Positions 36,698-64,000 of a DNA stretch of 64,000 nucleotides are shown here, piece after piece. Made by a program: the position numbers and the translations under genes. Source of the DNA: Novosphingobium flavum (GTDB taxonomy: Bacteria; Pseudomonadota; Alphaproteobacteria; Sphingomonadales; Sphingomonadaceae); NCBI RefSeq assembly GCF_014230315.1, contig NZ_JACLAW010000001.1, positions 310,001-374,000 of the forward strand, in the 5' to 3' direction. Positions within the stretch are counted from its first letter, which is position 1, and the number at the start of each line of letters is the position of its first letter. Under the pieces are notes generated by a model. It saw only the letters and a list, made by a program, of their open reading frames with translations. It did no database searches and was not told where the DNA came from.

Positions 36698-36727
36698 TAT
36701 TCCTGCAAGGGCGGTGACGAGGGTGCA

Positions 36728-45512: not shown

Positions 45513-45581
45513 ATCCACTCCCTTTTTGTTGGACGCATCTTCGACACGTCAGGCTTTTGGAGGCGGAGTCCCGTCTCCCTG

Positions 45582-48019: not shown

Positions 48020-48903
48020 GCGTGGATTTCCGCTTCGAGTTCGGCAAGCGCCTGCTGGTACTGCTCGGGATTAGGCACGCCGTGGTGCCATCCGGCCTGG
48101 TTTTCCATGAAGCTGACGCCCTTGCCCTTGATGGTGTTGGCGATGATCACCCGCGGCTGATTACGCGGGGCGCAGGCATCGTCGAATGCCGCCAGCAAGG
48201 CTGCGTGATCGTGGCCATCAACCTCGACGACCTGCCAGCCGAAGCTGGCCCATTTGCCGCCCAGCGGCTCCAGGCTGTTCGTGTCTTCCGTCCGCGCGCC
48301 CTGCTGAAGCCGGTTGCGATCGACGATTACCGTGAGATTGCCGAGGCCGCGATGACCGGCGAACATCGCCGCTTCCCACATGCTGCCTTCCTGCAATTCG
48401 CCATCGCCGGTCAGCACGAAGACGCGGTAATCCGCATTGTCGATCTGGCCTGCGACGGCGATGCCTACTCCAACGGGCAAGCCATGACCGAGGGGGCCGG
48501 TATTGGTTTCCACGCCCGGCAGATAGGTCCGGTTCGGATGGCCGTTCAGTCGCGAGCCCGGCTGGAGATAGGTGTCAAGATCGGCCTCGGGGAAGAACCC
48601 CGCCCCGGCGAGCGCCGTGTAAAGGGCGCCGGTGCAGTGCCCCTTGCTAAGGATGAAACGGTCGCGGCTGGGGGCAAGCGGTGCGGTGGGGTCAAAGCGC
48701 AGAATATCAAAATAAAGCGCAGCAACGATGTCGGTGGCTGACAGGTCTCCACCCGGATGGCCTTGGCCCGCGGCCACGATCATGCCGAGCAAGCGGCGGC
48801 GCATCCAGTTGGCGCGCTCACCAACATGGCGCGCACGCTGGGCTTTGCCGCCGATGTCCAAGGCGGCGTCGCCTGTTGCGGGGTATTGTTGTGGAGTGCC
48901 CAT
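48016..48903 (-). CDS. Transketolase, N-terminal subunit (split form)
   Basis: 295 residues corresponding to the ThDP-binding PP domain: GQGHPGGDLSATDIVAALYF, SKGHCTGALYTAL, GPLGHGLPVGVGIAVAG, and GDGELQEGSMWEAAMFAGHRGLGNLTVIVDRNRLQQ (GDG...N motif). GAGAGGAT precedes the ATG at 48903. First gene of the leftward operon; divergent from the DeoR regulator. With the C-terminal subunit it would transfer a two-carbon unit; in the apiose pathway the donor is apulose 4-phosphate, releasing dihydroxyacetone phosphate. Confidence 0.9.
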   Translation of the reverse strand: MGTPQQYPATGDAALDIGGKAQRARHVGERANWMRRRLLGMIVAAGQGHPGGDLSATDIVAALYFDILRFDPTAPLAPSRDRFILSKGHCTGALYTALAGAGFFPEADLDTYLQPGSRLNGHPNRTYLPGVETNTGPLGHGLPVGVGIAVAGQIDNADYRVFVLTGDGELQEGSMWEAAMFAGHRGLGNLTVIVDRNRLQQGARTEDTNSLEPLGGKWASFGWQVVEVDGHDHAALLAAFDDACAPRNQPRVIIANTIKGKGVSFMENQAGWHHGVPNPEQYQQALAELEAEIHA

Positions 48904-48972: not shown

Positions 48973-49019
48973 TCGTTTTGAGGGGTGAATGGGTTGCAAT
49001 TGACAAAATGCGAAAACGA
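48973..49019. promoter_or_regulatory. Possible DeoR operator in the divergent spacer
   Basis: TCGTTTT (48973-48979) and AAAACGA (49013-49019) form an inverted repeat. Read on the minus strand the second site is TTTCGCATTTTG, close to TTTCGTTTTG at the first. It lies between the transketolase operon and the DeoR gene. Confidence 0.4.
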
Positions 49020-49123
49020 TGCCTACCAAGGTGACAGGTGACTGGCCCGTGAAGCGGCCGGGATCAGAGGATGCGGAAACGAAAGGTCTTGCCAAGTGGC
49101 CGGCAGACGACATTACAGAGGCA

Positions 49124-49960
49124 ATGAACCCCGTGGAGGCCGCAAGGCCTTCGCCAGCTGTCGAGCAATTTCGAATGAATCAGCAGCCGAAAGTCCGTCT
49201 CCTTGCCGAGGCGCGGCGCAACAAAATTCTGGAATGGTTGCAGGAGGAGGGCAGTGCCCGGGTGCGAACCCTGGCGGATGCCTTCGGCGTGTCCGAAGTG
49301 ACCATGCGACAGGATCTGGAAAAGCTGGAAGCCGACGGGCACATAGCGCGCGAGCACGGCGGCGCCTTCCTGAAGTCTGTGCCGCAGCAGGTTCGGGCAA
49401 TGGCCCTGCAGCACCTCGACAACATGGACGCCAAGCGTCGCATCGGGCGGGCTGCGGCGCAGTTGGTGGGCAATGGCGAGACGATCGTGCTCGATTCTGG
49501 TTCGACCACTACCGAGGTGGCGTCCAACCTGCGCACACTGCGCGACATGACGGTGATCACCAACGCGCTGAACATCGCCCTGATGCTAGGAGCGGAAGCG
49601 GGCTTCGAGGTGCATATGCCGGGCGGGCACTTCAAGGCGCCGACCCTTTCGCTGAGCGGCGAGCGCTCTGCCGACTATTTTCGCGGCCTCTTCGCACAGA
49701 AGCTCTTTCTGGCCACGGCCGCGCTCGATCTGGATGCGGGGCTTACCTATCCGGCCCTTTCGGACATTCCCGTCAAGCGAGCGATGATCGAGGCCGCCGA
49801 GCGGGTCTATCTCGTCGCGGATTCCAGCAAGATCGGCCAGCGGTCGTTCACGTCGCTGGGCGGGATCGATCTGATCCATGTCCTGATTACAGACGAGGGC
49901 ATCCGGCCCGAGGATCGCGCGGCGCTCGAAGCAGCCGGCGTGGAAGTGATTATCGCCTGA
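49124..49960 (+). CDS. DeoR-family regulator
   Basis: 278 residues from the ATG at 49124 (AGAGG upstream). An ATG at 49175 would give 261 residues, nearer the family norm, and the frame also extends to 49019. N-terminal helix-turn-helix (RNKILEWLQEEGSARVRTLADAFGVSEVTMRQDLEKLEADG) and the sugar-phosphate-sensing DeoRC domain (VLDSGSTTTEVA, GGHFKAPTLSLSGERS, FLATAALDLDAGLTYP). DeoR regulators respond to a phosphorylated sugar. Placed between the divergent transketolase and isomerase operons, it probably represses both until the pathway intermediate accumulates. Confidence 0.9.
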   Translation: MNPVEAARPSPAVEQFRMNQQPKVRLLAEARRNKILEWLQEEGSARVRTLADAFGVSEVTMRQDLEKLEADGHIAREHGGAFLKSVPQQVRAMALQHLDNMDAKRRIGRAAAQLVGNGETIVLDSGSTTTEVASNLRTLRDMTVITNALNIALMLGAEAGFEVHMPGGHFKAPTLSLSGERSADYFRGLFAQKLFLATAALDLDAGLTYPALSDIPVKRAMIEAAERVYLVADSSKIGQRSFTSLGGIDLIHVLITDEGIRPEDRAALEAAGVEVIIA

Positions 49961-50018: not shown

Positions 50019-50999
50019 GTGAGCAATCAGAAGTACGGCGCCGGCATCTGGCATTTCGCCACCTACGTGGATCGTTATGCCACTGATGGCTACGGTCCAC
50101 CACGCTCGCTGGTGGAGATGATCGACCTTGCCGGGCAGGTTGATGACCTGTCGGTTGTCGATATCAACTATCCTTTTCCCGGCGGCGAAACCTCGATGGA
50201 GAAGATCGAGGAAGCGCTTCGGCGCAACAACCTTACGGTCATCGGGATCACTCCCGAGATCTATACGCGGCGCTTCGCCAAGGGGGCCTTTACCAACCCC
50301 GATCCAGGAATTCGCCGCCTTGCCAATGAGATGGTGAACGAGGCGGCCAACGTAGTGCGGCGCTTCAACGCCAGCTATGTCAAGCTCTGGCCCGGTCAGG
50401 ACGGATGGGACTATCCGTTTCAGGTAGATCACCGCCGGGTCTGGCAGCAGTCGATCGAGGGGGTGGCGGAACTCGCCGAGCAGAACCCGGACCTGCGTTT
50501 CGTCATCGAATACAAGCCGCGTGAACCGCGGGTGCATATGAGCTATGACAGCGTTGCACGCACCCTCCTCGGGATCGAAAAGATGGGCGTGCCCAACGTC
50601 GGCATCCTGCTGGACTTCGGGCATTCGCTCTATGGCGGCGAAAGCCCCGCCGACGCGGCGCAGCTGGCCATCGACCACGGCCGCCTGTTCGGCATGGACG
50701 TGAACGACAACCTGCGCAGCTGGGACGATGACCTGATTGCCGGGTCGGTGCATCCGATCGAGCTGTTCGAGTTCTTCTACACGCTGCGCAAGAACAAGTG
50801 GGAGGGCGTCTGGCAGCTTGACCAGTTTCCTTTCCGTGAGGACTCGGTGCGTGCGGCCAATTCCGCGATCGGGTTCCTGAAGGGGATCGAGCGGGCATTG
50901 GACAAGCTGGACTTCGAGGCCATGCAAAAGGCGCAGGATGAACATGACGCGGTCACCGCGCTCAAGCTTGCACGCGATGCCCTGTTCACTTCCTACTGA
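50019..50999 (+). CDS. Xylose isomerase-like TIM-barrel sugar isomerase (D-apiose isomerase candidate)
   Basis: 326 residues from a GTG at 50019 with AGGAGAGGAAG upstream. Sugar isomerase/AP-endonuclease-2 fold with the usual metal ligands: Glu in RFVIEYKPREPR, Asp-x-x-His in LLDFGHSLYGGE, Asp in GMDVND, and Asp in WQLDQFPF. In described apiose pathways a TIM-barrel isomerase makes apulose for the FGGY kinase, and the kinase plus split transketolase lie just across the divergent promoter. L-rhamnose isomerase-like or other aldose/ketose chemistry is the main alternative, given the rhamnosidase downstream. Confidence 0.85.
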   Translation: MSNQKYGAGIWHFATYVDRYATDGYGPPRSLVEMIDLAGQVDDLSVVDINYPFPGGETSMEKIEEALRRNNLTVIGITPEIYTRRFAKGAFTNPDPGIRRLANEMVNEAANVVRRFNASYVKLWPGQDGWDYPFQVDHRRVWQQSIEGVAELAEQNPDLRFVIEYKPREPRVHMSYDSVARTLLGIEKMGVPNVGILLDFGHSLYGGESPADAAQLAIDHGRLFGMDVNDNLRSWDDDLIAGSVHPIELFEFFYTLRKNKWEGVWQLDQFPFREDSVRAANSAIGFLKGIERALDKLDFEAMQKAQDEHDAVTALKLARDALFTSY

Positions 51000-51062: not shown

Positions 51063-52553
51063 ATGGCCTTGTGCATGCCTGAACCGGACGCCGGCGTACT
51101 GGCCCGGCGCGGCGCGATCGTGGCCGCGCTGCGCCGGATCGTGCCCGACGGAGTGATAGATGACGGCGACTGCCTGGCGCCCTACGAATGTGATGGGCTG
51201 ACCGCCTATCGCCAACGACCGATGGTGGTGGTCCTGCCCGAAACGACGGCGCAGGTGGCGGCCGTGCTTGCCTGGTGCCAGGCGAACGGCGTGAAGGTGG
51301 TTCCGCGCGGCGCGGGGACGTCGCTTTCGGGCGGCGCACTCCCGCTGGTCGATGGGGTGCTGCTGGGCATGGCCCGGTTCAACCGCATCCTGGAAGTGGA
51401 CTATCCCGAGCGAGTGGCGGTGGTCCAGCCGGGCGTGACCAATCTTGCGATCACGCGGGCCGTGGAAGATGCCGGGCTGTACTATGCCCCTGACCCGTCA
51501 AGCCAGATCGCCTGCACCATCGGCGGTAATGTGGCGGAAAACTCGGGCGGCGTGCATTGCCTCAAATACGGCCTCACCAGCAACAACGTGCTGGGCGTGG
51601 AACTCGTCACCATGGAGGGCGAGGTCCTGCGGCTGGGCGGCAAGGGGCTGGAGCCGCAGGGGCTGGATCTGCTGGGGGTCGTGGTCGGATCGGAGGGCCT
51701 GCTGGGTGTCGTGACCGAGGTGACGGTCCGCCTGTTGCCCAAGCCTGAGACGGCCAAGGCCTTGCTGATCGGGTTTTCCAACGTGGAAAGCGCCGGCCAA
51801 TGCGTTGCCGAGGTGATTGGCGCAGGCATCATCCCGGCGGGCATGGAAATGATGGACCGCGAGGCGGTTCATGCTGCCGAAGCCTTTGTCGGCGCGGGAT
51901 ACCCGCTGGACGTGGAGGCCCTGCTGATCGTCGAGCTGGACGGCCCTGAGGCGGAGTGCGTCCACCTGGTCGGCGAAGTGGAGCGGATCGCGAGGGCGAA
52001 CGGCGCCGTATCCGTGCGGGCGTCCCGCGACGATGCCGAGCGGGCGGTGTTTTGGGCCGGTCGCAAGGCGGCTTTCCCCGCGGCCGGGAGGATTTCACCC
52101 GACTATTATTGCATGGATGGCACGATTCCCCGGCGGCGCTTGCCAGAGGTCCTGCGGCGGATGAAAGAGCTTTCCGCACAGTTCGGCCTTGGCGTGATCA
52201 ATGTATTCCACGCAGGCGACGGAAATCTGCACCCCCTCATCCTGTACGATGCAAACCGCGACGGCGAATTGGAGCAGGCGGAGGCCTTTGGCGCCGAAAT
52301 CCTGAAGCTGTGCGTGGAAGTGGGAGGTGTCCTCACGGGCGAGCATGGCGTGGGCGTGGAAAAACGCGACCTGATGCCGACCATGTTTACGCCTGTCGAT
52401 CTGGCTCACCAGCAGCGAGTCAAATGTGCGTTCGATCCGTCACTGCTGCTAAATCCCGGCAAGGTTTTCCCGCAGCTTCACCGGTGCGCCGAGCTGGGGC
52501 GGATGCATGTGCACGGCGGGCAGTTGCCCCATCCCGAACTGCCGCGCATCTGA
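51063..52553 (+). CDS. glcD: GlcD-like FAD-linked oxidase subunit
   Basis: 496 residues with the vanillyl-alcohol-oxidase-type FAD domain (VPRGAGTSLSGGALPLVDGVLLGM near residue 80; IGGNVAENSGGVHCLKYGLTSNNVLGVELVT) and the C-terminal substrate domain ending GEHGVGVEKRDLMPTMF. With GlcE and GlcF it forms glycolate (or another 2-hydroxyacid) dehydrogenase feeding the respiratory chain. A short GTG frame (51004-51063, rich in CCGGCC repeats) ends on its start codon as TGATG. In this locus it would oxidise a C2 or hydroxyacid by-product of branched-sugar breakdown; D-lactate is another possible substrate. Confidence 0.87.
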   Translation: MALCMPEPDAGVLARRGAIVAALRRIVPDGVIDDGDCLAPYECDGLTAYRQRPMVVVLPETTAQVAAVLAWCQANGVKVVPRGAGTSLSGGALPLVDGVLLGMARFNRILEVDYPERVAVVQPGVTNLAITRAVEDAGLYYAPDPSSQIACTIGGNVAENSGGVHCLKYGLTSNNVLGVELVTMEGEVLRLGGKGLEPQGLDLLGVVVGSEGLLGVVTEVTVRLLPKPETAKALLIGFSNVESAGQCVAEVIGAGIIPAGMEMMDREAVHAAEAFVGAGYPLDVEALLIVELDGPEAECVHLVGEVERIARANGAVSVRASRDDAERAVFWAGRKAAFPAAGRISPDYYCMDGTIPRRRLPEVLRRMKELSAQFGLGVINVFHAGDGNLHPLILYDANRDGELEQAEAFGAEILKLCVEVGGVLTGEHGVGVEKRDLMPTMFTPVDLAHQQRVKCAFDPSLLLNPGKVFPQLHRCAELGRMHVHGGQLPHPELPRI

Positions 52554-53662
52554 TGCTGCGCCCTTCGACCATAGGCGACCTGTGCGAGATCGTGGCCGAC
52601 GGCGGCCCGCTTCGGCTGCGCGGCGGGGGCAGCAAGGATGCGATCGGATCTTCGACCGAAGCGGCGGTCGTGGATATGCGCGGGTTTTGCGGAGTGGCGG
52701 ACTATGACCCGCCCGAACTGGTGCTGACCGTTGGCGCGGGAACGCCGCTGGCCGAGGTCGAGGCGCTGGTGGCCGCAGAGCGGCAGATGCTGGCGTTCGA
52801 TCCGGTTGATCACGCGCATCTGCTGGGCGGCGAACCGGGGCGGGCGACGATTGGTGGAATTATAGCAGCCGGGGTTGCCGGGCCGGCGCGGTTGAGCCGG
52901 GGCGCCGCGCGGGATCACGTCCTTGGCTTCACAGCCGTTTCCGGGCGAGGAGAAGCTTTCGTGGCCGGGGCCAAGGTGGTCAAGAACGTCACGGGATATG
53001 ACTTGCCCAAGCTCGTCACCGGCAGTTGGGGAAGGCTGGCCGCCTTGACGCAGGTCACTCTGAAGGTGCTGCCTGCGCCGGAGACGAGCGGGACCGTGGT
53101 CCTGCGAGGGCAGGATGCGGCGCATGCGCAGGGCGCCATGGCGCGCGCCATGGGAACCGCCGCCGAGGTTTCCGCAGCCGCTCATTTGCCGGACTGGGAC
53201 GGCGGCGCGGTGACTGCGCTGCGACTGGACGGGTTCGCCCCCTCGGTGCGGGGCCGGATCGAACGGCTGAAGGCGGAAATACCGGCGCTTGAGGTGCTGG
53301 AAGACGGGGCGCGGTTATGGGAGGCCGTTCGCCATGCAACGACGCTGCCGCGCAGCCGGCCGCTCTGGCGCTGCATCGTCCCTGCGCGGCAGGCCCCGGT
53401 GCTGGTCGATGCGTTGCCTGGCTCCGACTGGTTGTTCGACTGGGCAGGGGGGCTGGTGTGGCTGGCGACCGAGGCTGATCCGGCGCTGGTGCGCAGCGCG
53501 GCCGAAGCCGCGGGCGGCCACGCCATGCTTGTGCGCGCCAGCGCAGTGATGCGCGCAGCCGTTCCTGCCCTGCATCCCCAGCCAGCACCTCTTGCGGCGC
53601 TGGAGGAGCGGGTGCGCCGCGCCTTTGACCCTGCCGGCGTGTTCGAGACGGGGCGCTTCTGA
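52553..53662 (+). CDS. glcE: GlcE-like FAD-binding subunit
   Basis: 369 residues. Shorter FAD_binding_4 protein: PLRLRGGGSKDAIGSS, GGEPGRATIGGIIAAGVAGPARLSRGAARDHVLGFTAVSGRGE and VVKNVTGYDLPKLVTGSWG are typical of GlcE. The ATG overlaps the GlcD stop (TGATG). Second flavoprotein subunit of the glycolate dehydrogenase complex. Confidence 0.88.
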   Translation: MLRPSTIGDLCEIVADGGPLRLRGGGSKDAIGSSTEAAVVDMRGFCGVADYDPPELVLTVGAGTPLAEVEALVAAERQMLAFDPVDHAHLLGGEPGRATIGGIIAAGVAGPARLSRGAARDHVLGFTAVSGRGEAFVAGAKVVKNVTGYDLPKLVTGSWGRLAALTQVTLKVLPAPETSGTVVLRGQDAAHAQGAMARAMGTAAEVSAAAHLPDWDGGAVTALRLDGFAPSVRGRIERLKAEIPALEVLEDGARLWEAVRHATTLPRSRPLWRCIVPARQAPVLVDALPGSDWLFDWAGGLVWLATEADPALVRSAAEAAGGHAMLVRASAVMRAAVPALHPQPAPLAALEERVRRAFDPAGVFETGRF

Positions 53663-54987
53663 TGCAGACGACGTTTTCTTCCGACCAGCTGGCCGACCCG
53701 GCGACGGCCGCGGCAGCGGCGGTGATCCGCAAGTGCGTGCATTGCGGCTTCTGCACTGCAACCTGTCCGACCTATGTCCTGCTGGGCGATGAACTCGACA
53801 GTCCGCGCGGGCGAATTTACCTGATGAAGGACATGCTCGAAAACGAGCGGACGCCCAGCGCCGAGGTGGTGAAGCACGTCGACCGGTGCCTGTCATGCCT
53901 CTCATGCATGACGACCTGCCCGTCGGGCGTGAACTACATGCACCTCGTCGATCACGCCCGGGCATATATCGAGGCGCGGCACCGGCGGCCTTGGCATGAG
54001 CGCCTGCTGCGCGCCGCTCTGGCGCACATCCTGCCTTATCCGGGGCGCTTCAGGCTGGCCTTGGGCACGGCGCGGCTGGCCCGCCCGCTTGCCGGCCCCC
54101 TGGCGCGTGTGCCGGCGCTGCGCCCGCTTGCGGCGATGCTGACGCTGGCTCCCGGCCGGGCGGCCAAAACAAGCGATCCGGTTTCAACGCGAGGGGCGCC
54201 AGCGGCTGCTGCACGCAAGCGAGGGCGGGTTGCCTTGCTGCAAGGTTGTGCCGAGCCGGTCCTGCGACCGCAGTTCCGCGCGGCAACGGTGCGCCTGTTG
54301 ACCCGCCTCGGCTATGACGTGGTTTTTGCCAAGGGCGAAGGATGTTGTGGTGCCCTGGTTCACCACATGGGACGCGAGGAAGACGGGCTGGCCGCCGCGC
54401 GCCGGAACGTGGACGCCTGGACGCGCGAGATCGAGGCCGGCGGCCTTGATGCCGTGGTCATTACCGCTTCCGGCTGCGGCACGACGATCAAGGACTATGG
54501 CTTCATGCTGCGGGGCGATCCCGCCTATGCCGAAAAGGCTGCGCGCGTTTCCGCTCTTGCGCGGGATATAAGCGAACTGCTTGCCGAGGTGGATCTGCCG
54601 CCGGGCGATGGGCGCGGGCTGACGGTCGCCTATCAGTCGGCCTGCTCACTGCAGCATGGGCAGAAGGTTGATGACGCGCCGCGCCGGCTTCTGGCCCGTG
54701 CCGGCTATGTCGTGCGCACTCCGGCCGAGGCCCATTTGTGCTGCGGTTCGGCGGGAACATACAACATTCTTCAGCCTGACATCGCGGCCCAGCTTGGGGA
54801 GCGCAAGGCGGCTCAGCTGGAACGGCTGCAGGCAGACGTGATCGCCACGGGCAACATCGGTTGCGCCATGCAGATCGGCCCGCGCGTGGGGGTTCCGGTC
54901 GTCCATACGATTGAACTGCTGGACTGGGCCACGGGCGGCCCGGCGCCGGAACAACTGGCTGCCAGGGCGGCCACGGGAGAGAATTGA
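53662..54987 (+). CDS. glcF: GlcF-like iron-sulfur subunit
   Basis: 441 residues. Two 4Fe-4S motifs, CVHCGFCTATCPTY (about residue 26) and CLSCLSCMTTCPSG (about 76), are followed by two CCG domains (GEGCCGALVHHMGREEDG and HLCCGSAGTYN). It links the flavin subunits to the quinone pool at the inner membrane. ATG overlaps the GlcE stop (TGATG), and its own stop overlaps the next ATG, showing tight coupling with the glycosidase genes downstream. Confidence 0.92.
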   Translation: MQTTFSSDQLADPATAAAAAVIRKCVHCGFCTATCPTYVLLGDELDSPRGRIYLMKDMLENERTPSAEVVKHVDRCLSCLSCMTTCPSGVNYMHLVDHARAYIEARHRRPWHERLLRAALAHILPYPGRFRLALGTARLARPLAGPLARVPALRPLAAMLTLAPGRAAKTSDPVSTRGAPAAAARKRGRVALLQGCAEPVLRPQFRAATVRLLTRLGYDVVFAKGEGCCGALVHHMGREEDGLAAARRNVDAWTREIEAGGLDAVVITASGCGTTIKDYGFMLRGDPAYAEKAARVSALARDISELLAEVDLPPGDGRGLTVAYQSACSLQHGQKVDDAPRRLLARAGYVVRTPAEAHLCCGSAGTYNILQPDIAAQLGERKAAQLERLQADVIATGNIGCAMQIGPRVGVPVVHTIELLDWATGGPAPEQLAARAATGEN

Positions 54988-56366
54988 TGAGAGCGATCAC
55001 CGCGCTGTTCGCGGCGACCCTGCTGGGCGGGGCACTGCCTGCGGCTGCGCAAACGCCTCCGTTATCGGTGGCTCCGGGCGGTCATTACTTGCTGGCGGGC
55101 GGCAAGCCATTCTTCTGGATGGGCGATACCGGCTGGCTGCTGCTGAGCCGGACCAGCCGGGCCGAGGCTGAACGCTATCTGGTTACCCGCAAGCGGCAGG
55201 GCTTCAACGTGGTGCAGGTGATGGTCCTGCATACCGAACGCATGGCCAATCCCGCGACGGGAACGGCGCTGGAGAATGGCGACCCGGGCCGCCCCCGGGT
55301 GACACCGGGCAGCGATCCTGCCCGTGCAGGCGAATATGACTATTGGGATCATCTCGACTGGGTGGCGCAGCGCGCGGAAGAACTGGGAATCTACCTTGCG
55401 CTGGTGCCCTGCTGGGGTTCCATCGCCGACGAGGGCAAGCTGAACCCGCGCAATGCGGCTGCCTACGGCCGTTTTCTGGGTGAGCGATATGGCAGGCGGC
55501 CCAACATCATCTGGCTCAACGGCGGGGATACCCGGTCGGAGCAGCGCAGCATCGTGTGGGACGCGCTGGGGGCTGCCATCAAGCAGGCCGACCCGCGGCA
55601 CCTGATGACGTTCCATCCGATTGGCCGGACGGACTCCGCGTGGCAGTTCCACACCGCGCCGTGGCTTGATTTCAATATGTTCCAGTCAGGACACCGGTCA
55701 TATGCGCAGGAGGGACCGAGCGCTCACGGCGAGGACAACTGGCGTTACGTTGCCGACGACTGGGTGCGAGTCCCCGCCAAGCCGGTGATCGACGGCGAGC
55801 CGAGCTATGAAAACATTCCGCACGGTCTGCACGAACCGGCGCCGCAGCCGCGCTGGCAGGCCGCAGACGCGCGGCGATACGCCTGGTGGGCCGTCATGGC
55901 AGGGGCCTTTGGGCACACCTACGGCGAGAACCACGTCATGCAGTTCTTCACGCCCGGCGCGGACACGGCCAATTTCGAGCCGGTGACGCCGTGGACCGAG
56001 GCGCTCGAGGCGCCGGGTGCGAACCAGATGCAATTCCTCCGCCGCCTGATCGAATCCCGGCCCATGCTGGAGCGGGTGCCGGACCAGTCGCTGATCGTCG
56101 GCAATGGGGTGCGTTACGAGCGGGTGCTGGCGAGCAGGGGCCGCACCTATGCGTTCGCCTATGCCTATACCGGGCGAACCTTCACCATGCGGCTTGGCGC
56201 GGTGAGCGGCGGGCAGGTGCGGGCGCAGTGGTATTCCCCTCGAGACGGCGCGGCCGTTCCCATCGGCACTTTTCCCAACCGCGGGGTGCGGCGGTTCGAT
56301 CCGCCCGGCAATCCCGCGCCGGGCAATGACTGGGTACTGGTTCTGGATGGCGTGAGGGCGAAGTGA
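54987..56366 (+). CDS. GH140-like (DUF4038) apiosidase, copy 1
   Basis: 459 residues from the ATG at 54987, overlapping the GlcF stop. Signal peptide MRAITALFAATLLGGALPAAAQ. The DUF4038 TIM barrel begins GGHYLLAGGKPFFWMGDTGWLLL and includes GEYDYWDHLDWVAQRAEELGIYLALVPCWG. Asp181 (WLNGGDTR) and Glu271 (VIDGEPSYEN) are likely catalytic acid/base and nucleophile. A small C-terminal beta domain (pfam12904-like: YSPRDGAAVPIGTFPNRG) follows. The family includes the apiosidase acting on rhamnogalacturonan-II. It probably releases apiose in the periplasm. A close paralogue lies at 61397. Confidence 0.85.
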   Translation: MRAITALFAATLLGGALPAAAQTPPLSVAPGGHYLLAGGKPFFWMGDTGWLLLSRTSRAEAERYLVTRKRQGFNVVQVMVLHTERMANPATGTALENGDPGRPRVTPGSDPARAGEYDYWDHLDWVAQRAEELGIYLALVPCWGSIADEGKLNPRNAAAYGRFLGERYGRRPNIIWLNGGDTRSEQRSIVWDALGAAIKQADPRHLMTFHPIGRTDSAWQFHTAPWLDFNMFQSGHRSYAQEGPSAHGEDNWRYVADDWVRVPAKPVIDGEPSYENIPHGLHEPAPQPRWQAADARRYAWWAVMAGAFGHTYGENHVMQFFTPGADTANFEPVTPWTEALEAPGANQMQFLRRLIESRPMLERVPDQSLIVGNGVRYERVLASRGRTYAFAYAYTGRTFTMRLGAVSGGQVRAQWYSPRDGAAVPIGTFPNRGVRRFDPPGNPAPGNDWVLVLDGVRAK

Positions 56367-59300
56367 GCACCCGTGTCGTTGACCTGCGCGCCGAGAACAC
56401 GGTGGACCTGCTGGGCACCGAAGTGGAACGGCCGCGTCTTTCGTGGCGGATCGAGGCAGACCGGTCCGGCGTGATGCAAGCCGGCTACCGCCTGCGCGCG
56501 GCCGGCAGCATTGCCGCCCTGAACGGCGAAGCAGAGCTGTTGTGGGACAGCGGCGCGGTTGCGGGCAGCGCGAGCTTCGACATCGCCTGGGGTGGGCCGC
56601 CACTGAAATCGATGCAGCGCGTCTGGTGGCAGGTTGAGGTGACCGACAACCAGGGCGGAGTGGTCCGCTCCGATCCCGCCTGGTTCGAGCAAGGGCTGCT
56701 TTCGGCCGGAGACTGGCGGGCGGATTGGATCGAGGCGGAGGACGACTTTGCCGCCGCCGAGCGCCACGCGGGCGTGGACTGGGTGTGGAGCGAGACGGCG
56801 CTGGATAACCGCCCCCACGCATTCCGGCTGGACTTTGATGCGCCTGCGGACCTCACGCGCGCCGAAGTGCTGATCACGGGCAAGGACCACCTGCGCGGCG
56901 TCTGGATCAATGGCGCGCCCTCTCCGCTCGAGCGGCCCTTCGACTGGAACACCTACCTCCCGTTCTGGGGCACGCTGGCTGTCTATGCAGGAGAGGTGCG
57001 CCCGGGCCGCAATTCGGTCTGCGCGCTGGTCGAGGCGGATACGGTCGGGTTCTTTCCCGTCGACGGCGGCGCGTTTGCCGCTCTGATCCGGCTCTATCGC
57101 GCGGATGGCAGCGTGGAGCGGATCGTCAGCCGGGCGTTTCGGGTATGCCCGGCTGCGCCGGAGGGCTGGATCGACCCGGAATTCGACGCGAGCAGCTGGG
57201 ATGCCGTGGTGGCCAGCACATCAGACGCGCAGGGCGACCCGCGCCCGAGCGAGCCGGCCATGCTGCTGCGCACAGGCTTCGTCGTGGACAAGCAGGTGGC
57301 GGAGGCGAGGCTCTATGCCACGGCACTTGGCTCCTATGTGGCCACGATCAACGGGCAGCCCGCGGCCGAGGCCATTCTGGCGCCCGAGATCAGCGTGGCC
57401 AAGGACCACGTGCAATATCAGACCTATTGCGTGACCGGGCTGATCGCGCAGGGCGAGAACGTGCTGGGCGCGCTGGTGGGGGATGGCTGGTATGCCAGCC
57501 CCTTTGGCTGGCGTATCGAACGCTACGGCTTCGGTCCTGCGCCGAGGCGGTTTCGGGCGCAGCTGCGGATCGACTATACCGATGGCACGAGCTGCTGGGT
57601 GACCACAGGGCCGAACTGGCGCATAGCCACGTCGGCCATAGCGAAGTCCGAGATCTACGACGGCGAAATCCGGGACGCCCGTGCCGTGATGCCGGGCTGG
57701 GACAGGCCGGGCTTCGATGCGGCGGAATGGGCTTCTGCGCGGGTGGGGGCGGACCCGGGCACGCGACTGGTGGCGCAAACCTCGCCCCTGCTGGAGCGGC
57801 GCGGTACCTTGCGGGCGGTGAGCGTCAATGAGCCGGTCTCCGGGCGCTTCGTATTCGACTTCGGGCAAAACTTTCCGGGGTGGGCCCGCATCCGCGCGAC
57901 CGGGGCGGCAGGGACCAAGATCACGGCCCGCTATGCCGAACTGCTCAACCCGGATGGCACGGCCGACCTTTCCAACCTGCGGCTGGCGGAGGCAACCGAC
58001 CGCTTCACCCTTGCCGGCGGAGGGGAGGAAGTCTTCGAGCCGACCTTTACCTATCACGGGTTCCGCTATGTCGAGATCAGCGGTTACCCCGGGGTGCCGA
58101 CGACCGACACAGTCGAAGGCATAGTGGTTCACAGCGCCTGCCGGGAAACCGGGGTCATGACCTTCGCCGATGCGCCGCTGTTGCAGACGATCTGGGAAAA
58201 TGCGCTCTGGAGCCAGCGATCGAACTTCTTCTCCGTACCCACTGACTGCCCGCAGCGCGACGAGCGCATGGGGTGGATGGGCGATATTCAGGTGTTCCTG
58301 GATGCGGCGGCGTTCAACATGGAAGTCGATCCGTTCATCCGTCGCTTCCTGCTGGAAGCGAGGGCAGCGCAGCGGCCCGACGGGGGCTATCCCATTGTCG
58401 TGCCGCAGCCGCTGTCCTTTCCGGACGTGGTCACGGCCGGGTGGAGCGAGGCGGGCATAATCCTGCCGTGGCAGTTGTGGCAGCGTTATGGCGACACGGC
58501 GGTGATCGATGAGAACTGGGCCGCGATGGAAGCGTGGATGGCCTATGTCGGCCGGGCTAACCCGGATGGCATCTGGCGCAACGAACGCGGTCTGGATCTG
58601 GGCGACTGGCTTTCGGTAGATGCGATTAAGCCCGACGACGAGACGACCCCGCGCGCGCTGTGCGCCACTGCATACTGGGCCTGGTGCGCCGACCTGATGG
58701 CGCAAATGGCAAGGGCGACCGGGCGCGACGGTGACGCGGCCCGCCACGCGGCGCTGCGGGAACGGATCGGCAATGCCTTTGCCGCCGAGTTCGTGCGGCC
58801 TGATGGAACAGCGGGCAACGGCAGTCAGGCCAGTCAGGTCCTGTCGCTGTACATGGGGTTGGTGCCATCCGAATTGCGGGCGGCGGCGGCAGGCATCCTT
58901 GCAGCGGACATCCGGGCCCGGGGAATGAAGCTCTCGACCGGGTTCCTCGGAACGCCCTACATCCTTGATGTGCTGGCCGATGCCGGGCGTCACGAGGAAG
59001 TGTCGGGTCTGCTGCTCCAGACCGGCTATCCCAGCTGGGGCTATATGCCGAGCCAAGGCGCCACGACCATGTGGGAGCGCTGGAACGGCGACACGGGCGA
59101 CCTGTCGATGAACAGCTACAACCACTATGCCTTCGGCGCGGTGGTGGGCTTTTTCTACCGCCGTCTGGCCGGCATTGCGCCGGCCGAGCCGGGCTTCCGC
59201 AGGATTGCGGCGCGCCCACTGTGGTATCCGGCGGTCGGCCGGGTGGCGGCCCGGTACGAAGCAATCGTGGGCACCATCAGCACCGAAACCGGCGGCGACG

Positions 59301-59458
59301 AACGCGGCCTGACCCGGTTCCGGCTGTCCATTCCCGCCAATACCACCGCCGAGGTCGAACTGCCGGGTGACGGGTGGCTGCTCGCGGGCAGGGCCGTCGG
59401 CAACCGCGCCGAAGTGGGCGGGGGCGATCATGAATTCATCAAATCGGGACAGGACTGA
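56363..59458 (+). CDS. GH78 alpha-L-rhamnosidase
   Basis: 1031 residues from a GTG that overlaps the upstream stop (GTGA). N-terminal beta domains (VDLLGTEVERPRLSWRIE; AEVLITGKDHLRGVWING; bacterial alpha-L-rhamnosidase N domain). The (alpha/alpha)6 catalytic domain has NFFSVPTDCPQRDERMGWMGDIQVFLDAAAFNME (about 615-650), with the acidic catalytic residues, and WERWNGDTGDLSMNSYNHYAFGAV (about 908-931); a C-terminal beta domain follows. No signal peptide is obvious, so it may act in the cytoplasm on imported oligosaccharides. It removes alpha-linked rhamnose. Confidence 0.93.
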   Translation: MSTRVVDLRAENTVDLLGTEVERPRLSWRIEADRSGVMQAGYRLRAAGSIAALNGEAELLWDSGAVAGSASFDIAWGGPPLKSMQRVWWQVEVTDNQGGVVRSDPAWFEQGLLSAGDWRADWIEAEDDFAAAERHAGVDWVWSETALDNRPHAFRLDFDAPADLTRAEVLITGKDHLRGVWINGAPSPLERPFDWNTYLPFWGTLAVYAGEVRPGRNSVCALVEADTVGFFPVDGGAFAALIRLYRADGSVERIVSRAFRVCPAAPEGWIDPEFDASSWDAVVASTSDAQGDPRPSEPAMLLRTGFVVDKQVAEARLYATALGSYVATINGQPAAEAILAPEISVAKDHVQYQTYCVTGLIAQGENVLGALVGDGWYASPFGWRIERYGFGPAPRRFRAQLRIDYTDGTSCWVTTGPNWRIATSAIAKSEIYDGEIRDARAVMPGWDRPGFDAAEWASARVGADPGTRLVAQTSPLLERRGTLRAVSVNEPVSGRFVFDFGQNFPGWARIRATGAAGTKITARYAELLNPDGTADLSNLRLAEATDRFTLAGGGEEVFEPTFTYHGFRYVEISGYPGVPTTDTVEGIVVHSACRETGVMTFADAPLLQTIWENALWSQRSNFFSVPTDCPQRDERMGWMGDIQVFLDAAAFNMEVDPFIRRFLLEARAAQRPDGGYPIVVPQPLSFPDVVTAGWSEAGIILPWQLWQRYGDTAVIDENWAAMEAWMAYVGRANPDGIWRNERGLDLGDWLSVDAIKPDDETTPRALCATAYWAWCADLMAQMARATGRDGDAARHAALRERIGNAFAAEFVRPDGTAGNGSQASQVLSLYMGLVPSELRAAAAGILAADIRARGMKLSTGFLGTPYILDVLADAGRHEEVSGLLLQTGYPSWGYMPSQGATTMWERWNGDTGDLSMNSYNHYAFGAVVGFFYRRLAGIAPAEPGFRRIAARPLWYPAVGRVAARYEAIVGTISTETGGDERGLTRFRLSIPANTTAEVELPGDGWLLAGRAVGNRAEVGGGDHEFIKSGQD

Positions 59459-59463
59459 AAACC

Positions 59464-60150
59464 ATGCCGACACTGGGACTCATCCATAACTCGCCGATGC
59501 TGGCAGCAGTGTTCAACGAGATCGCGGCGCGCGTGATGCCGGATGACGTGAAGCTCCTGCACTTCGTTGACGAGAGCACGATCAAGAACACCATTGCCGC
59601 CGGGTATTTGCAGAAGTCCACGATGCGGCAGGTGATCCGCCTGGTCGGATCGGCCTTCGACGCTGGCTGCGACGTGGCGATGGTAACCTGTTCTTCCATC
59701 GGCCGGGCCGTGGACATGGCAGCCGAGCTTTACGATCAGCCGGTCCTGCGGGTGGACCGGGCGATGGCCGACAAGGCGATCGCGACCGGCCGGCGGATCG
59801 GCGTCGTTGCCACTCTGCCCACCACCCTCGGCCCCACGGCGGAACTGATCCGGCGCGTCGCCATGGAGCAGGGCCGGGACATCGAGATCGTGGAGCACCT
59901 GTGTGAAGGCGCCTTCGATGCCGTGATGGCAGGCGACGGGGCGACTCATGACCGGATCGTGGGGGAAGGGCTGACCCGGGGCATGGAGGGCGTCGATGCC
60001 ATCGTGCTGGCGCAAGCCTCGATGGCGCGCGTCGTTGCCAGCCTGCCTGAAGGAGCAGTGCAGGCGCCCGTCTATTCCAGCCCGGAACTGGGGATGCAGC
60101 GGGCGGCCGAGGTGCTCGCCGGGCTGAAGGCTCGGGAAGCCGGGCGATGA
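59464..60150 (+). CDS. Aspartate/glutamate racemase-superfamily protein
   Basis: 228 residues: GLIHNSPMLAAVFNEIAARVMP start, Cys in MVTCSSIGRAVD (about residue 80), and a second motif QASMARVV (about 182) where a classic racemase would have its second Cys (Ala here). The superfamily also contains decarboxylases and isomerases (maleate isomerase, arylmalonate decarboxylase, hydantoin racemase). With one Cys only it may not be a racemase. It lies five bases after the rhamnosidase and overlaps the transporter, so it belongs to the glycan operon; its substrate is unknown, perhaps a sugar-derived acid. Confidence 0.75.
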   Translation: MPTLGLIHNSPMLAAVFNEIAARVMPDDVKLLHFVDESTIKNTIAAGYLQKSTMRQVIRLVGSAFDAGCDVAMVTCSSIGRAVDMAAELYDQPVLRVDRAMADKAIATGRRIGVVATLPTTLGPTAELIRRVAMEQGRDIEIVEHLCEGAFDAVMAGDGATHDRIVGEGLTRGMEGVDAIVLAQASMARVVASLPEGAVQAPVYSSPELGMQRAAEVLAGLKAREAGR

Positions 60151-61400
60151 GCAAGCGGCGCATCGTCCTTGGCTTTCTGGCGCTCCTGTCGATCATCACC
60201 TTCATCGACCGGCTGGCCATCGCCGTCACCGGGCCGGCCATCCAGAAAGACCTTTCGATCAGCCCGCAGCAATGGGGCTGGGTGCTCAGCGCCTATGTGA
60301 TCGCCTATGCCGTGTTCGAGATCCCCTCGGGCGCGATGGGTGATCGGCACGGCGTCCGCAAGGAACTGACCCGGATCACGGTATGGTGGTCGTTTTTCAC
60401 GGCCCTTACTGCGGCCTGCCGCAATTTCTGGCAGTTGGCGGCCGCGCGGTTCCTGTTCGGGCTGGGGGCAGCAGGCGCCTATCCCAACATGACGGGGGTG
60501 CTTTATCGCTGGCTCCCGGCGCGCGAACGTGCGCGCGGGCAAGGCGTGATCTGGGCGGCAAGCCGGTTTGGGGGCGGGCTCGCGCCCTTGCTGCTGGTCC
60601 CTGCCAACAAGATACTTGGCTGGCAGGCCGTGTTCATCATCCTGGGGGCAGCGGGCTTCGCCTGGAGCATCGGCTGGTGGACCTGGTTTCGCGATCGGCC
60701 CGCCGATCAACCCGGCATCACGCCCGAGGAGGTGGCCGAGATCGGCGCGGACGACACAGCCGGGCATGTCGGCACGCCGTGGCGCCAGTTGCTTGGCCTG
60801 CCCCAGTTGTGGCTGATCTCCCTTGCCTATCTGTTCTATGCCTTCGGCAGTTGGTTCTTCTTCGGCTGGTTTCCCACCTGGATGGTCAAGGGGGCTGGGT
60901 TTACGGTGGACGAGATGGGGCTTTACGGCTCCGTCCCGTTCCTGCTGGGGGTGGTGGGCAATCTGTTGGGCGGCCTGCTGTGTGACCGGTTGGCCGCACG
61001 CATGGGCGTCCGCAATGCCTATCGGATGATCGCTTCTTGCTGCCTGATCGTCACTGCCGGCCTGCTTGTGGCGATGAGTCTTGCAACGGACAAGATGGCG
61101 GTCGTCGTCCTTGCCGGCATGGCCTTCATGGTGATGGATCTGATGCTCCCCGCGGCGTGGGCCATGTGCATGGCCATCGGCGGAAGATACGGCGGCACGG
61201 CATCGGGCGTCATGAACACGGCCGGCAACATCGGCGGGTTCGTTTGTTCGGTGGCCTTCGGCTATGTCGTGGCGGCGACGGGCAATTATGACCTGCCCTT
61301 GCAGGGCGTGGCCGCGATGGTCGTGATTGCCGCGGTGCTGTTCGCCCTGATCGACTGTACGCGCGGGCTGGATCACAAGATCAGGGCCGAGCTTCCATGA
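60147..61400 (+). CDS. MFS transporter, anion:cation symporter (hexuronate/sugar-acid) type
   Basis: 417 residues with about 12 helices. FIDRLAIAVTGPAIQKDLSISPQQWGWVLSAYVIAYAVFEIPSGAMGDRHGVR is typical of the ACS family (ExuT/GudP-like). The ATG overlaps the upstream stop (ATGA) and the stop overlaps the next gene. It likely imports a mono- or disaccharide or sugar acid freed by the exported glycosidases. Confidence 0.9.
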   Translation: MSKRRIVLGFLALLSIITFIDRLAIAVTGPAIQKDLSISPQQWGWVLSAYVIAYAVFEIPSGAMGDRHGVRKELTRITVWWSFFTALTAACRNFWQLAAARFLFGLGAAGAYPNMTGVLYRWLPARERARGQGVIWAASRFGGGLAPLLLVPANKILGWQAVFIILGAAGFAWSIGWWTWFRDRPADQPGITPEEVAEIGADDTAGHVGTPWRQLLGLPQLWLISLAYLFYAFGSWFFFGWFPTWMVKGAGFTVDEMGLYGSVPFLLGVVGNLLGGLLCDRLAARMGVRNAYRMIASCCLIVTAGLLVAMSLATDKMAVVVLAGMAFMVMDLMLPAAWAMCMAIGGRYGGTASGVMNTAGNIGGFVCSVAFGYVVAATGNYDLPLQGVAAMVVIAAVLFALIDCTRGLDHKIRAELP

Positions 61401-62815
61401 TGAGGAAGGTCGCAGCCACTCTGGCGGCCTTTGTCGGCATGGCGGGCGTGATTATCGCAGCCTCCATCCTCGCCGCATCCGGCGCAATTGCCCGGGAGAC
61501 GCCTCGTCTCACCGTTTCGGCCAACGGCCGCTACCTTCTGGCGGGCGGAAAGCCGTTTTTCTGGCAGGGCGACACTGCCTGGCTGTTGCTCGCCAAGCTC
61601 AACCGCGACGAGACGGAACGCTATCTTGCCGCGCGTGAGGCCCAGGGCTTCAACGTCATTCAGGTGATGATGCTCCACCGGCCGGACATGGCCAATCCCG
61701 TGGCCGGGCCTGCGCTGGAGAACGGCGATCTTGCTCGCCCCCGGGTGACGCCGGGCAATGATCCGGCAAAGCCGGGCGAATACGATTACTGGGATCACCT
61801 CGACTGGGTGTTTGACCGGGCGGCAGCGCACGGCATCTATATCGCGCTGGTCCCGGTCTGGGGCGACTTTGCCGATTTCCGGCTGTTCAACCCGGAGACC
61901 GCGCCAATCATCGGCCGCTTCGTGGCCGAGCGATACAGGAACAAGCCCAACCTCATCTGGGTCAACGGGGGCGATCGCTATGGCGAGCTTTCTCCGCTTG
62001 CCTGGAACCGGCTCGGCGAGACGATCCGGGCAAGCGATCCTGTCCACCTGATGACCTACCACCCGGCGGGCAGGGCCAGTTCCTCATGGGCGTTCCACCG
62101 CGCTGCCTGGCTGGACTTCAACATGTATCAGTCCGGGCATCAGGACTATGCGCAGGACCAGCAACTGCACGCGAGGGGCGAGGACAACTGGGTCTACACC
62201 GCCGACGATCTGTCGCGCCGCCCGCGAAAACCGACCATCGACGGTGAGCCGAGCTACGAGAACATCCCGCACGGGCTTGATCGGGCGCCCGAGCCGCGCT
62301 GGACGGCGGCGGATGTGCGGCGTTATGCATGGTGGTCGGTCATGGCGGGCGCGTTCGGCCACACCTATGGCGAGAACAGCGTGATGCAGTTCTTCGTCCG
62401 CGGCACCAAGGCCAATGCCTACTGGCCCGAGCTTTCCTGGCAGGAGGCGCTGGATGCACCCGGCGCGCGCCAGATGCACCACCTGAAAGACCTGATCCTG
62501 TCCCGCCCGTTTCTGGACCGCATACCGGACCAGTCCCTGATCACTGACAGCGGGCCGCGTTATGCGCGCGTCGCCGCAAGCCGGGGACGCAGCTACGCCA
62601 TTGCCTATACCTGGACCGGCCGCCCCTTCCACGTGAAGATGGGCAAGATCAGCGGAGGCCGGGTGCGAGCCTCGTGGTTCGATCCGCGGACCGGCCGGTT
62701 CACCCCCATCGGCACTTTTGCCAATCGCGGCGTTCGTCGTTTCACCCCGCCGGGCAGGCCTTCGCCCGGGAACGACTGGGCGCTTGTGCTGGATGATGCG
62801 CGAGGATTGAAATGA
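61397..62815 (+). CDS. GH140-like (DUF4038) apiosidase, copy 2
   Basis: 472 residues, closely similar to the gene at 54987 (shared NGRYLLAGGKPFFWQGDTAW, GEYDYWDHLDWVFDRAAAHGIYIALVPVWG, WVNGGDRYG, TIDGEPSYENIPHGL, FANRGVRRFTPPG). An N-terminal hydrophobic segment (AATLAAFVGMAGVIIAASILAASGAIA) is a signal peptide or anchor. The presumed Asp and Glu catalytic residues are both retained. It overlaps the MFS stop. The two copies may cleave apiosyl linkages in different contexts. Confidence 0.85.
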   Translation: MMRKVAATLAAFVGMAGVIIAASILAASGAIARETPRLTVSANGRYLLAGGKPFFWQGDTAWLLLAKLNRDETERYLAAREAQGFNVIQVMMLHRPDMANPVAGPALENGDLARPRVTPGNDPAKPGEYDYWDHLDWVFDRAAAHGIYIALVPVWGDFADFRLFNPETAPIIGRFVAERYRNKPNLIWVNGGDRYGELSPLAWNRLGETIRASDPVHLMTYHPAGRASSSWAFHRAAWLDFNMYQSGHQDYAQDQQLHARGEDNWVYTADDLSRRPRKPTIDGEPSYENIPHGLDRAPEPRWTAADVRRYAWWSVMAGAFGHTYGENSVMQFFVRGTKANAYWPELSWQEALDAPGARQMHHLKDLILSRPFLDRIPDQSLITDSGPRYARVAASRGRSYAIAYTWTGRPFHVKMGKISGGRVRASWFDPRTGRFTPIGTFANRGVRRFTPPGRPSPGNDWALVLDDARGLK

Positions 62816-64000
62816 AAGCGAAACTGATCGCGGCTGCCGGCCTGTTGCTTGTGCCGTCGTCTGCGGTGCTGGCTGCCGATCCGGCCGTTCAGAAGGCCGC
62901 GCCGCCCGCCCTTGCCGTGGCGCATGAGCGTGTGTGGCTGGGTTCGGCGTGGTATCCCGAGCAGTGGCCTGAGACGGCCTGGGAAGAGGACCTGGGCCTC
63001 ATGCAGGCCCACGGCGCGAATGTCGTGCGCATCGGAGAGTATGCGTGGAGCCGTCTGGAGCCGGAGGAAGGGCACTATGACATGGCCTGGCTGGTTCGCG
63101 CGGTCCGGCTGGCCGGGCGTCACGGGATCAAGGTGGTGGTAGGTACGCCGACCGACACGCCGCCGGCGTGGCTTACCCAGAAATACCCCGACACCCTGCA
63201 GGTCGACGGAACCGGGCGGCGGCTGGGGCACGGCGGGCGCCGGCAGTTCTCGATTTCGTCGGCCCGCTATCGCGACCTTGCCCGCGACATCGTGACCCGC
63301 ATGGCGCAGGCCCTGAAGGACGAGCCGAACGTGATCGGCTGGCAAATCGGGAATGAGCCGACGGACGAGAGCTATGACGCCGAGGCGCGGGCGCACTGGA
63401 TCGATTGGCTGAAGGCGCGCTACGGCACGCTGGACCGGCTTAACGATGCCTGGGCCACGGCATACTGGTCGCAGACCTATACTGCCTGGGATCAGGTGCC
63501 GTTCAACACCGATAAGGCCAATCCCGGCTGGATGCTGGAGCTGAAGCGCTTCATCACCGCCGAATGGCGGGCCTTTCACCGTAACCAGATCGACGCGATC
63601 CGCGCGGTGGTGGGGGGGCGGCAGTTCGTCACCATCAACTTCGGCGGGCTGGGCTGGGCCAACCGGTTTGACCGTTATGAGATGAACCGCGATCTCGATC
63701 TCGCATCGTGGGACGAATATGTGGGCATGGGGCACCTGAAGCCCGACCGCATGGGTGCGTCACACGATCTGGTTCGCGGCTGGAAGCGGCAGAACTTCTG
63801 GGTGATGGAAACCCAGCCGGGTTTCGTGAACTGGGCCCCGGTCAGCAATATGCTCTACCCCGGAGAAACGCGGGCGGCCGCTTGGCAGGCGGTCGGCCAC
63901 GGGGCCGACGCGGTACTGTACTGGCAATGGCGAAACGCGCTCAACGGGCAGGAAACCATGCACGGCTCCATCGTGGGGCCGGACGGAAAGCCACTGCCGA
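62812..64000 (+). CDS. GH42 beta-galactosidase, exported (3' end outside window)
   Basis: 396 codons are visible before the right edge. Signal peptide MKAKLIAAAGLLLVPSSAVLA, then the GH42 TIM barrel: GSAWYPEQWPE, GANVVRIGEYAWSRLEPEEG, GWQIGNEPTDESY (acid/base Glu after Asn) and FWVMETQPGFVNW (nucleophile Glu). GH42 enzymes remove beta-galactose from oligosaccharides; bacterial members of this family are mostly cytoplasmic, so the export signal is unusual. It overlaps the previous stop by four bases, continuing the operon. Confidence 0.9.
   Translation, partial: MKAKLIAAAGLLLVPSSAVLAADPAVQKAAPPALAVAHERVWLGSAWYPEQWPETAWEEDLGLMQAHGANVVRIGEYAWSRLEPEEGHYDMAWLVRAVRLAGRHGIKVVVGTPTDTPPAWLTQKYPDTLQVDGTGRRLGHGGRRQFSISSARYRDLARDIVTRMAQALKDEPNVIGWQIGNEPTDESYDAEARAHWIDWLKARYGTLDRLNDAWATAYWSQTYTAWDQVPFNTDKANPGWMLELKRFITAEWRAFHRNQIDAIRAVVGGRQFVTINFGGLGWANRFDRYEMNRDLDLASWDEYVGMGHLKPDRMGASHDLVRGWKRQNFWVMETQPGFVNWAPVSNMLYPGETRAAAWQAVGHGADAVLYWQWRNALNGQETMHGSIVGPDGKPLP

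Follow-up and report, generated by a model that had tools for sequence, protein, structure and literature searches.

This work concerns two genes for glycoside hydrolase family 140 (GH140) proteins, here named GH140a and GH140b, in a 64,000-nucleotide stretch of the Novosphingobium flavum genome (assembly GCF_014230315.1, contig NZ_JACLAW010000001.1, positions 310,001 to 374,000; hereafter the window, in whose own numbering coordinates are given). From sequence and predicted structure, we conclude that they encode a genuine pair of apiosidases of the GH140 type, situated in an apiose operon. Their predicted activity is beta-D-apiofuranoside hydrolysis, and they probably release apiose, a branched plant sugar, from plant molecules. 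The two enzymes likely differ in specificity, and the rebuilt active-site rim of GH140b suggests that the pair handles different apiose-containing plant molecules. On balance, we favor the view that the operon is an apiose-harvesting and catabolizing locus in which GH140a and a remodelled GH140b are directed at different apiosides. The GH140 family is already known; the new elements are the pairing, its position in the operon and the remodelled rim of the paired GH140b subtype, termed B2. None of the literature matches listed, judged by title or abstract start, dealt with GH140 paralogues of sphingomonads.

Both open reading frames are complete on the + strand, GH140a at 54987..56366 and GH140b at 61397..62815. 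The start of GH140a was taken as the ATG at 54987, and the mechanical list of open reading frames begins it at TTG 54984. Both proteins match the PF13204 'Apiosidase' domain (E 1.4e-105 for GH140a and 2.1e-103 for GH140b) and the C-terminal domain PF12904, far over the curated cut-offs, and they are identical in 61% of the aligned positions (285/470 columns). The Asp and Glu residues aligning with D187 and E284 of BT1012 from Bacteroides thetaiotaomicron (PDB 3kzs and 5msy) are D181/E271 in GH140a and D193/E284 in GH140b, and they are invariant across the 40-sequence alignments. We take D187 and E284 to be the catalytic pair of BT1012, and these numbers fit the chain numbering if 20 signal residues are added. 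A preliminary description made from the sequence alone had proposed two GH140-like paralogues at 54987-62815 with both presumed catalytic residues in common, and our results confirm both points.

The only solved relatives found by sequence were 3kzs/5msy, 4qfu and 8t9w. The predicted models of GH140a and GH140b, with mean predicted local distance difference test values of 93.7 and 91.2, respectively, consist of a barrel and a C-terminal beta-sandwich, as in 5msy, which was the top Foldseek match of both (E 1.3e-58 and 7.0e-56; template modelling scores by query length 0.89 and 0.87). Besides domain layout, predicted fold and the catalytic Asp/Glu, the two sphingomonad enzymes have the QSGH, DGEP and HTYG motifs in common with BT1012, to which they are 43-46% identical. 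GH140a further shares the GRT motif with BT1012, along with R at position 243 and H at position 295 of that enzyme, whereas GH140b differs by GRA, Q249 and D295 at those sites and by other beta3-beta5 loops. The GH140 apiosidase 8t9w from a mangrove metagenome shares the fold and the catalytic pair with both proteins, but it is 37-40% identical to them, occupies a separate tree branch and has a longer beta3 loop.

To place the pair among its relatives, we used a pattern scan seeded with GH140b, which favors GH140b kin, and kept the best 80 of 125 confirmed stretches, representing 73 distinct loci (L-numbers below; L001-L008 were left out). Trees were built with 86 proteins (broad) and 37 proteins (careful), the latter holding 13 rows of subfamily A and 14 of subfamily B; the long-branched L047 was left out of subfamily A in the loop alignment, the careful tree, and the fixed-site and pairwise comparisons, and paired A sequences truncated by the end of a locus entered all of these and the broad tree unchanged. 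The sphingomonad GH140 proteins form one clade composed of subfamily A (100/99), which includes GH140a, subfamily B (100/99), which includes GH140b, and a small type C. With A and B as separate clades, a recent tandem duplication of GH140a and GH140b is not favored. In the best tree, A groups with type C and not with B (91/95, not starred); a single A+B clade is not formally rejected (approximately unbiased (AU) test, p 0.267). B proteins of paired genomes form one clade (100/100). Their A partners do not in the best tree, although a single clade is not rejected for them either (AU p 0.158).

Whole-genome counts covered 22 genomes besides that of the window, with types read from loci and trees. 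A and B occur together in five genomes (L009, L010, L011, L018 and L024), all with the gene order A, GH78, racemase, major facilitator superfamily (MFS) gene, B and GH42, and in one more across two contigs (L021 and L094). Seven genomes have A alone, six B alone (one, L057, fragmentary), two C alone, and one B and C on different contigs.

The fixed-site comparisons point to the paired B proteins. Taken as whole subfamilies, A and B differ at 13 fixed sites, 0/13 of them in the beta3-beta5 loops, and the catalytic face is not enriched (4/132 vs 9/270, p=1). This speaks against a general active-site difference between A and B, and our claim is therefore narrowed to B2. Two of the four differences on the face, H to D295 and R to Q249, lie after beta6 and beta7 and are changes on the B side. 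Position 295 is H in 27/27 outgroup rows, making the change to D295 in B clear; outgroups at position 249 are mixed (18 R, 7 Q and 2 K), so that R to Q249 is less clear as a B change. When B2 was compared with the B proteins that stand without A (solo B), 22 fixed differences were found, 14 of them on loops of the catalytic face (14/141 vs 8/294, odds ratio 3.9, p=0.0037; without L021 and L057, 11/141 vs 6/293, p=0.0066). Of those 14, 13 sit in the beta3-beta5 loops, which together make up 30 positions, and the pair of residues following Asp193 is among them. Relative to overall difference, these loops differ by a factor of 0.24 within solo B, 0.73 within B2 and 1.85 between the two, the next highest pairwise ratio being 1.65 (C with B2).

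Control splits with 13-23 fixed sites placed only 0-3 of them in beta3-beta5: 0/22 between two Hymenobacter groups, 0/17 within solo B, 2/13 for A and C, 1/20 for B and C, 2/14 for A and solo B, and 3/23 for A and B2, besides the 0/13 for A and B. Wider splits gave 7/46 (B2 and C) and, against Hymenobacter, 5/40 (A), 4/48 (B), 5/69 (C), 15/67 (solo B) and 13/92 (B2). At the level of sequence, the contrast of B2 with solo B is the pattern expected of a function change in B. The preliminary description had argued for different specificity from loops such as CWGSIADEGKLN versus VWGDFADFRLFN. These loops are present as written but do not separate the subfamilies, because A members carry WGS or WGD, and we rejected them as an A/B marker. 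The proposal of different specificity thus finds support, not for the reason first given, but from the B2/solo-B sites, 14/22 of which are in face loops, the b-form loop included.

Here, we need to consider several points that weigh against a specificity change in B2. First, loop membership was assigned by DSSP of the predicted model and not by ligand distances. Second, attention turned to beta3-beta5 after the first result, and the broader test on the catalytic face was the only one fixed in advance. Third, enrichment in face loops is no peculiarity of the B2/solo-B split, since it was also seen for B vs C (p=0.047), B2 vs C (p=0.001), solo B vs Hymenobacter (p=0.001) and B2 vs Hymenobacter (p=0.0004), and, judged by the outgroups, positions have changed in solo B as well as in B2. 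Fourth, because the B2 clade arose in a single event, its loops provide one data point, and factors besides substrate can alter a loop. Finally, paired and solo A differ at a single fixed site, a comparison of little value as a control given that paired A does not form a clade in the best tree.

The genes around the pair make up an apiose locus. On the + strand, the operon is headed by a gene for a DeoR-family regulator (49019..49960, domain match), followed by a xylose-isomerase-like triosephosphate isomerase barrel protein (50019..50999) whose nearest PDB entry is 3ktc (E 4.9e-138), which we take to be an ApsI-type D-apiose isomerase. Next come a GlcD-like flavin adenine dinucleotide (FAD)-linked oxidase, a glycolate oxidase-type subunit (51063..52553, presumably GlcD from its domains), a GlcE-like FAD-binding subunit (52553..53662) and a GlcF-like iron-sulphur subunit (53662..54987, domain match). 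The GlcE-like gene lies within the mechanical reading frame 51956-53662, and its start was set by eye at ATG 52553, which overlaps the GlcD stop. Between the two GH140 genes, domain matches identify a GH78-type alpha-L-rhamnosidase without signal peptide, predicted to be cytoplasmic (56363..59458), an Asp/Glu/hydantoin racemase family protein conserved in A-type clusters (59464..60150) and an MFS transporter (60147..61400). GH140b is followed, as in the paired genomes, by a GH42 beta-galactosidase-type gene with a signal-peptide-like start (62812..63999), which runs beyond the window end and has its remainder in L006. From GlcF to GH42, neighboring genes overlap by 1-4 bases at five of the six junctions and are separated by 5 bases at the sixth (GH78/racemase); therefore, these genes likely form a single transcription unit, and the 'one operon' of the preliminary description is borne out at the level of gene packing. 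The promoter scan gave 0 sites vs 2.1 in shuffles, and the terminator scan was at chance level.

Upstream on the - strand are genes for homologues of AptA (N-terminal transketolase half, 48016..48903, 48% identical to E. coli SE15 ECSF_RS02710), AptB (C-terminal transketolase half, 47069..48019, 42% to E. coli SE15) and AplK (FGGY sugar kinase, 45582..47066, 44% to E. coli SE15), and for the TonB-dependent receptor of the cluster (42405..45518, domain match). Downstream of the window, the GH42 remainder is followed by a SBD_N/NBD_C kinase gene (L006:1893-3257, - strand, from its domains), presumably of the DUF1537 type, a gene for a RuBisCO-like protein (L006:3167-4438, - strand; nearest 3nwr, E 2.5e-120), a GH127-domain enzyme and an aldo-keto reductase, and further on by GH106, a second GH42, a GDSL esterase and GH29. 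The genes for the sugar-acid-type kinase and the RuBisCO-like protein thus stand side by side, adjoining the apulose-pathway genes. The apiose locus is rare in the sampled genus, with PF13204 in 0/36 of its other genomes. Two neighboring products deserve mention. The racemase-family protein at 59464-60150 is found in most A-type clusters at 72-86% identity, has no solved relative by sequence and no obvious role in apiose breakdown. A 1206-residue protein with a partial GH9 match and a CelD_N domain is encoded near the locus at window 33575-37195 (-).

We suggest the following course of apiose use. GH140a and GH140b would be exported beta-D-apiosidases, as family, predicted fold, catalytic residues and signal-like N-termini indicate. 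GH140a would be the resident enzyme with the more ancestral catalytic rim. The beta3-beta5 loops of B2 are unlike those of stand-alone B, so GH140b would take a different apioside, with another aglycone or another apiose substituent, and would not repeat the work of GH140a. For uptake of the released apiose or rhamnosyl-apiose, the TonB receptor and an MFS porter may serve; we infer the latter to be the likely importer of (rhamnosyl-)apiose. GH78 lacks a signal peptide in 12/12 genomes (starts by eye), which suggests that it strips rhamnose inside the cell after import of the rhamnosyl-apioside. This order fits the Bacteroides system, in which, according to PMC7939467, BT1012 acts on Rha-alpha1,3-Api-beta1,2-GalA (rhamnose, apiose and galacturonic acid), cutting between apiose and galacturonic acid, and a rhamnosidase then splits Rha-Api.

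Inside the cell, the isomerase, AplK and AptAB would convert D-apiose to triose and pentose phosphates; these steps run from D-apiose to D-apulose, D-apulose-4-phosphate and the triose/pentose phosphates. The gene identities of AplK, AptA and AptB in E. coli SE15 follow PMC13001218, which treats the D-apulose pathway of Pectobacterium and E. coli STc131. The kinase and split transketolase described here are 42-48% identical to their E. coli SE15 counterparts. The Escherichia apulose cluster has no apsI according to PMC13001218, whereas the sphingomonad locus has the 3ktc-type isomerase; unlike the D-apulose pathway loci, its genes are also linked to exported GH140, GH78, GH42 and the TonB receptor, with GlcDEF-like and RuBisCO-like genes added.

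A 3-oxo-isoapionate-4-phosphate route with RuBisCO-like proteins was reportedly described by Carter et al. in 2018. In apiose catabolism, RuBisCO-like proteins act on 3-oxo-isoapionate-4-phosphate, as stated in PMC6302742, and the likeness here is a RuBisCO-like protein beside a SBD_N/NBD_C kinase, the reaction being putative in our locus. A second, apionate-type route ending in glycolate may use the downstream kinase and RuBisCO-like protein together with GlcDEF; perhaps two apiose routes are combined in one locus, with GlcDEF as the possible glycolate oxidase of the second. With genes for sugar release next to catabolic genes, the locus thus joins release with one clear and one possible apiose route.

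Which apiosides the pair meets was approached through the other enzymes of the locus and its relatives. Rhamnogalacturonan II (RG-II) carries side chains A and B, both of which hang on apiose and one of which contains galactose. We searched 23 genomes for pectin-related families (E <= 1e-20 for GH106, GH28 and GH88/105, 1e-10 for polysaccharide lyase family 1 (PL1) and 1e-3 for DUF3826; weaker GH28-like proteins may exist). GH106 alpha-L-rhamnosidase was found in 21/23 genomes, with that of the window carrying one at C11:381863-384367 and one on contig C3, and GH88/105 in 17/23. GH28 was present in 8/23 genomes, including that of the window, but in 0/6 of the other paired genomes, PL1 in 1/23, and DUF3826, the domain of the RG-II methylesterase BT1017, in 0/23. 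The GH127-domain enzyme was considered as an RG-II aceric acid hydrolase, which is not supported; it is nearer 5opj than 6ex6, which we take to be the RG-II aceric acid hydrolase. We do not class the locus as an RG-II locus.

One tentative reading, which we regard as possible but not probable, is that the locus targets apiosylated plant metabolites, namely saponins such as platycosides and flavonoid apiosides, and that GH140b has lost the preference for galacturonic acid and takes apiosyl-xylose or apiosyl-glucose. Platycosides bear an apiosyl-xylosyl-rhamnosyl-arabinosyl chain at C-28 whose breakdown needs an apiosidase, xylosidase, rhamnosidase and arabinosidase, according to PMC9952785, and the GH140, GH78/GH106, GH42-type and GDSL genes could match this chain. 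Pectin-backbone enzymes, moreover, are mostly missing at the thresholds used. Against this reading, GH140a and GH140b both have a closer relative in the RG-II enzyme BT1012 than in 8t9w. Similarly speculative is a stronger form of the specificity change, in which B2 GH140 would be a neofunctionalised apiosidase acting beyond Api-beta1,2-GalA, for example on apiosyl-xylose or -glucose of saponins and flavonoids, and spreading as a GH140b-GH42 cassette that inserts into a pre-existing apiose operon behind its transporter gene.

A division of labor on RG-II, with one enzyme for each of the side chains A and B and GH42 marking the galactose-containing chain, appears unlikely to us. It would agree with the kinship to BT1012, with the wide occurrence of GH106 and GH88/105, and with the presence in the locus of GH78, GH106, GH29, the GH127-domain enzyme, GH42, which follows GH140b, and an esterase; the GH140 of known function cuts Api-beta1,2-GalA of RG-II, as given in PMC7939467. 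However, at the thresholds used, the same genomes speak against it through the absence of DUF3826, the scarcity of GH28 (none in the other paired genomes) and PL1, and the GH127-domain enzyme that sides with 5opj.

We also consider it improbable that the two enzymes are redundant, cleaving the same apiosides, with the second copy serving dosage or other conditions and the loop differences reflecting drift. The same catalytic pair, the 61% identity and the same domain layout are what redundancy would predict, and 15/22 related genomes with GH140 have only one. Drift accords poorly with beta3-beta5 loops that are conserved within each B group (0.24 and 0.73 times) and diverged between them (1.85 times), and with control splits that place 0-3 fixed sites in these loops vs 13/22.

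The N-termini of the pair differ, as the preliminary description had noted: GH140b begins with a 28-residue uncharged run with a maximal 19-residue hydropathy of 2.38, and GH140a with a 19-residue run with a hydropathy of 1.74. The AxA site ahead of the mature domain is nevertheless kept in both (AAA at residue 21 in GH140a, predicted to be exported, and AIA at residue 32 in GH140b), and the long segment is private to this strain. In a survey with starts picked by a simple rule (L028, for which no start was found, was left out), the N-termini of the remaining B proteins in the tree (13/13) resemble ordinary signal peptides (uncharged run 15-20, hydropathy 1.24-2.02) with an A/V/T-x-A site near the run end, and 6/6 paired A proteins read have ordinary N-termini. 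The different location proposed for the two enzymes is thus not supported, and anchoring of GH140b in the inner membrane by its long hydrophobic segment, suggested by the run length and hydropathy of the window protein, is very unlikely given the ordinary N-termini of the other B proteins and the retained AxA site.

We then consider the origin of the pair. Solo members of both subfamilies stand beside apiose genes (A in L019, L025, L026, L028 and L029; B in L015 and L016), and in 5/5 paired genomes fetched further upstream AptA lies beyond GH140a and GlcDEF- or flavin mononucleotide (FMN)-dehydrogenase-type genes. GH140b-GH42 comes after the MFS gene in L009, L010, L011, L018, L024 and L021, and a kinase gene on the opposite strand is next after GH42 in the genome of the window, L009, L011 and L021, with 1-1.6 kb between in L009 and L011; the L018 and L024 sequences end inside GH42. 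In five A-only loci (L019, L025, L027, L029 and L051), the MFS gene is followed directly by the kinase gene, without GH140b and GH42. In the three B-only loci tested (L013, L015 and L016), GH140b adjoins an MFS gene and an opposite-strand DUF5060-family gene, and this combination of MFS and DUF5060 genes recurs in the genome of the window at C11:397468-400500, there with no full GH140. Based on the layouts of A-only and B-only loci, we suggest that the GH140a/GH140b pair was probably assembled and is not a fresh duplication. Against this, L010 has other genes and not the kinase after GH42, and the A-only Tsuneonella loci L026 and L028 show no MFS/racemase pair behind GH78, so the insertion picture does not fit every genome. 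The tree of paired A leaves two histories for GH140b-GH42, which may have been gained once and then lost, or may have moved.

Further observations concern the same regions. At L007:6402-8003 and 4965-6299, a DUF5060/DUF5605 protein that matches PF13204 weakly (nearest 4n0r) has an MFS gene as its neighbor; such a weak PF13204 match occurs in 18/22 related genomes and lies near GH140b in the six B-only loci. The interval between GH140a and GH78 holds nothing in the window and is ~3.6 kb in the paired L009, L010, L011, L018 and L024. In L019, genes for an enolase-superfamily protein, a short-chain dehydrogenase/reductase and an amidohydrolase lie between GH140a and GH78 (L019:11052-15121), perhaps an L-fucose/L-rhamnose-type oxidative set, and an enolase-type gene after GH140a is also seen in L026 (L026:11344-12564) and L094. 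In the Cohnella loci L062, L063 and L064, two GH140 genes adjoin on opposite strands, a separate pairing in Bacillota.

For the organism, the locus joins an isomerase/kinase/transketolase route with a RuBisCO-like gene pair of the sort found in the other apiose route. For the family, no rule is known to us by which sequence would distinguish an RG-II GH140 apiosidase from one acting on apiosylated metabolites. The natural series of A alone, B alone and A with a remodelled B points to a few positions that may set specificity (D295, Q249 and the beta3-beta5 loops) and supplies matched enzymes. Specific apiosidases are in demand for saponin processing: PMC9952785 asks for glycosidases with narrow specificity, and beta-D-apiosidase is one of those it names.

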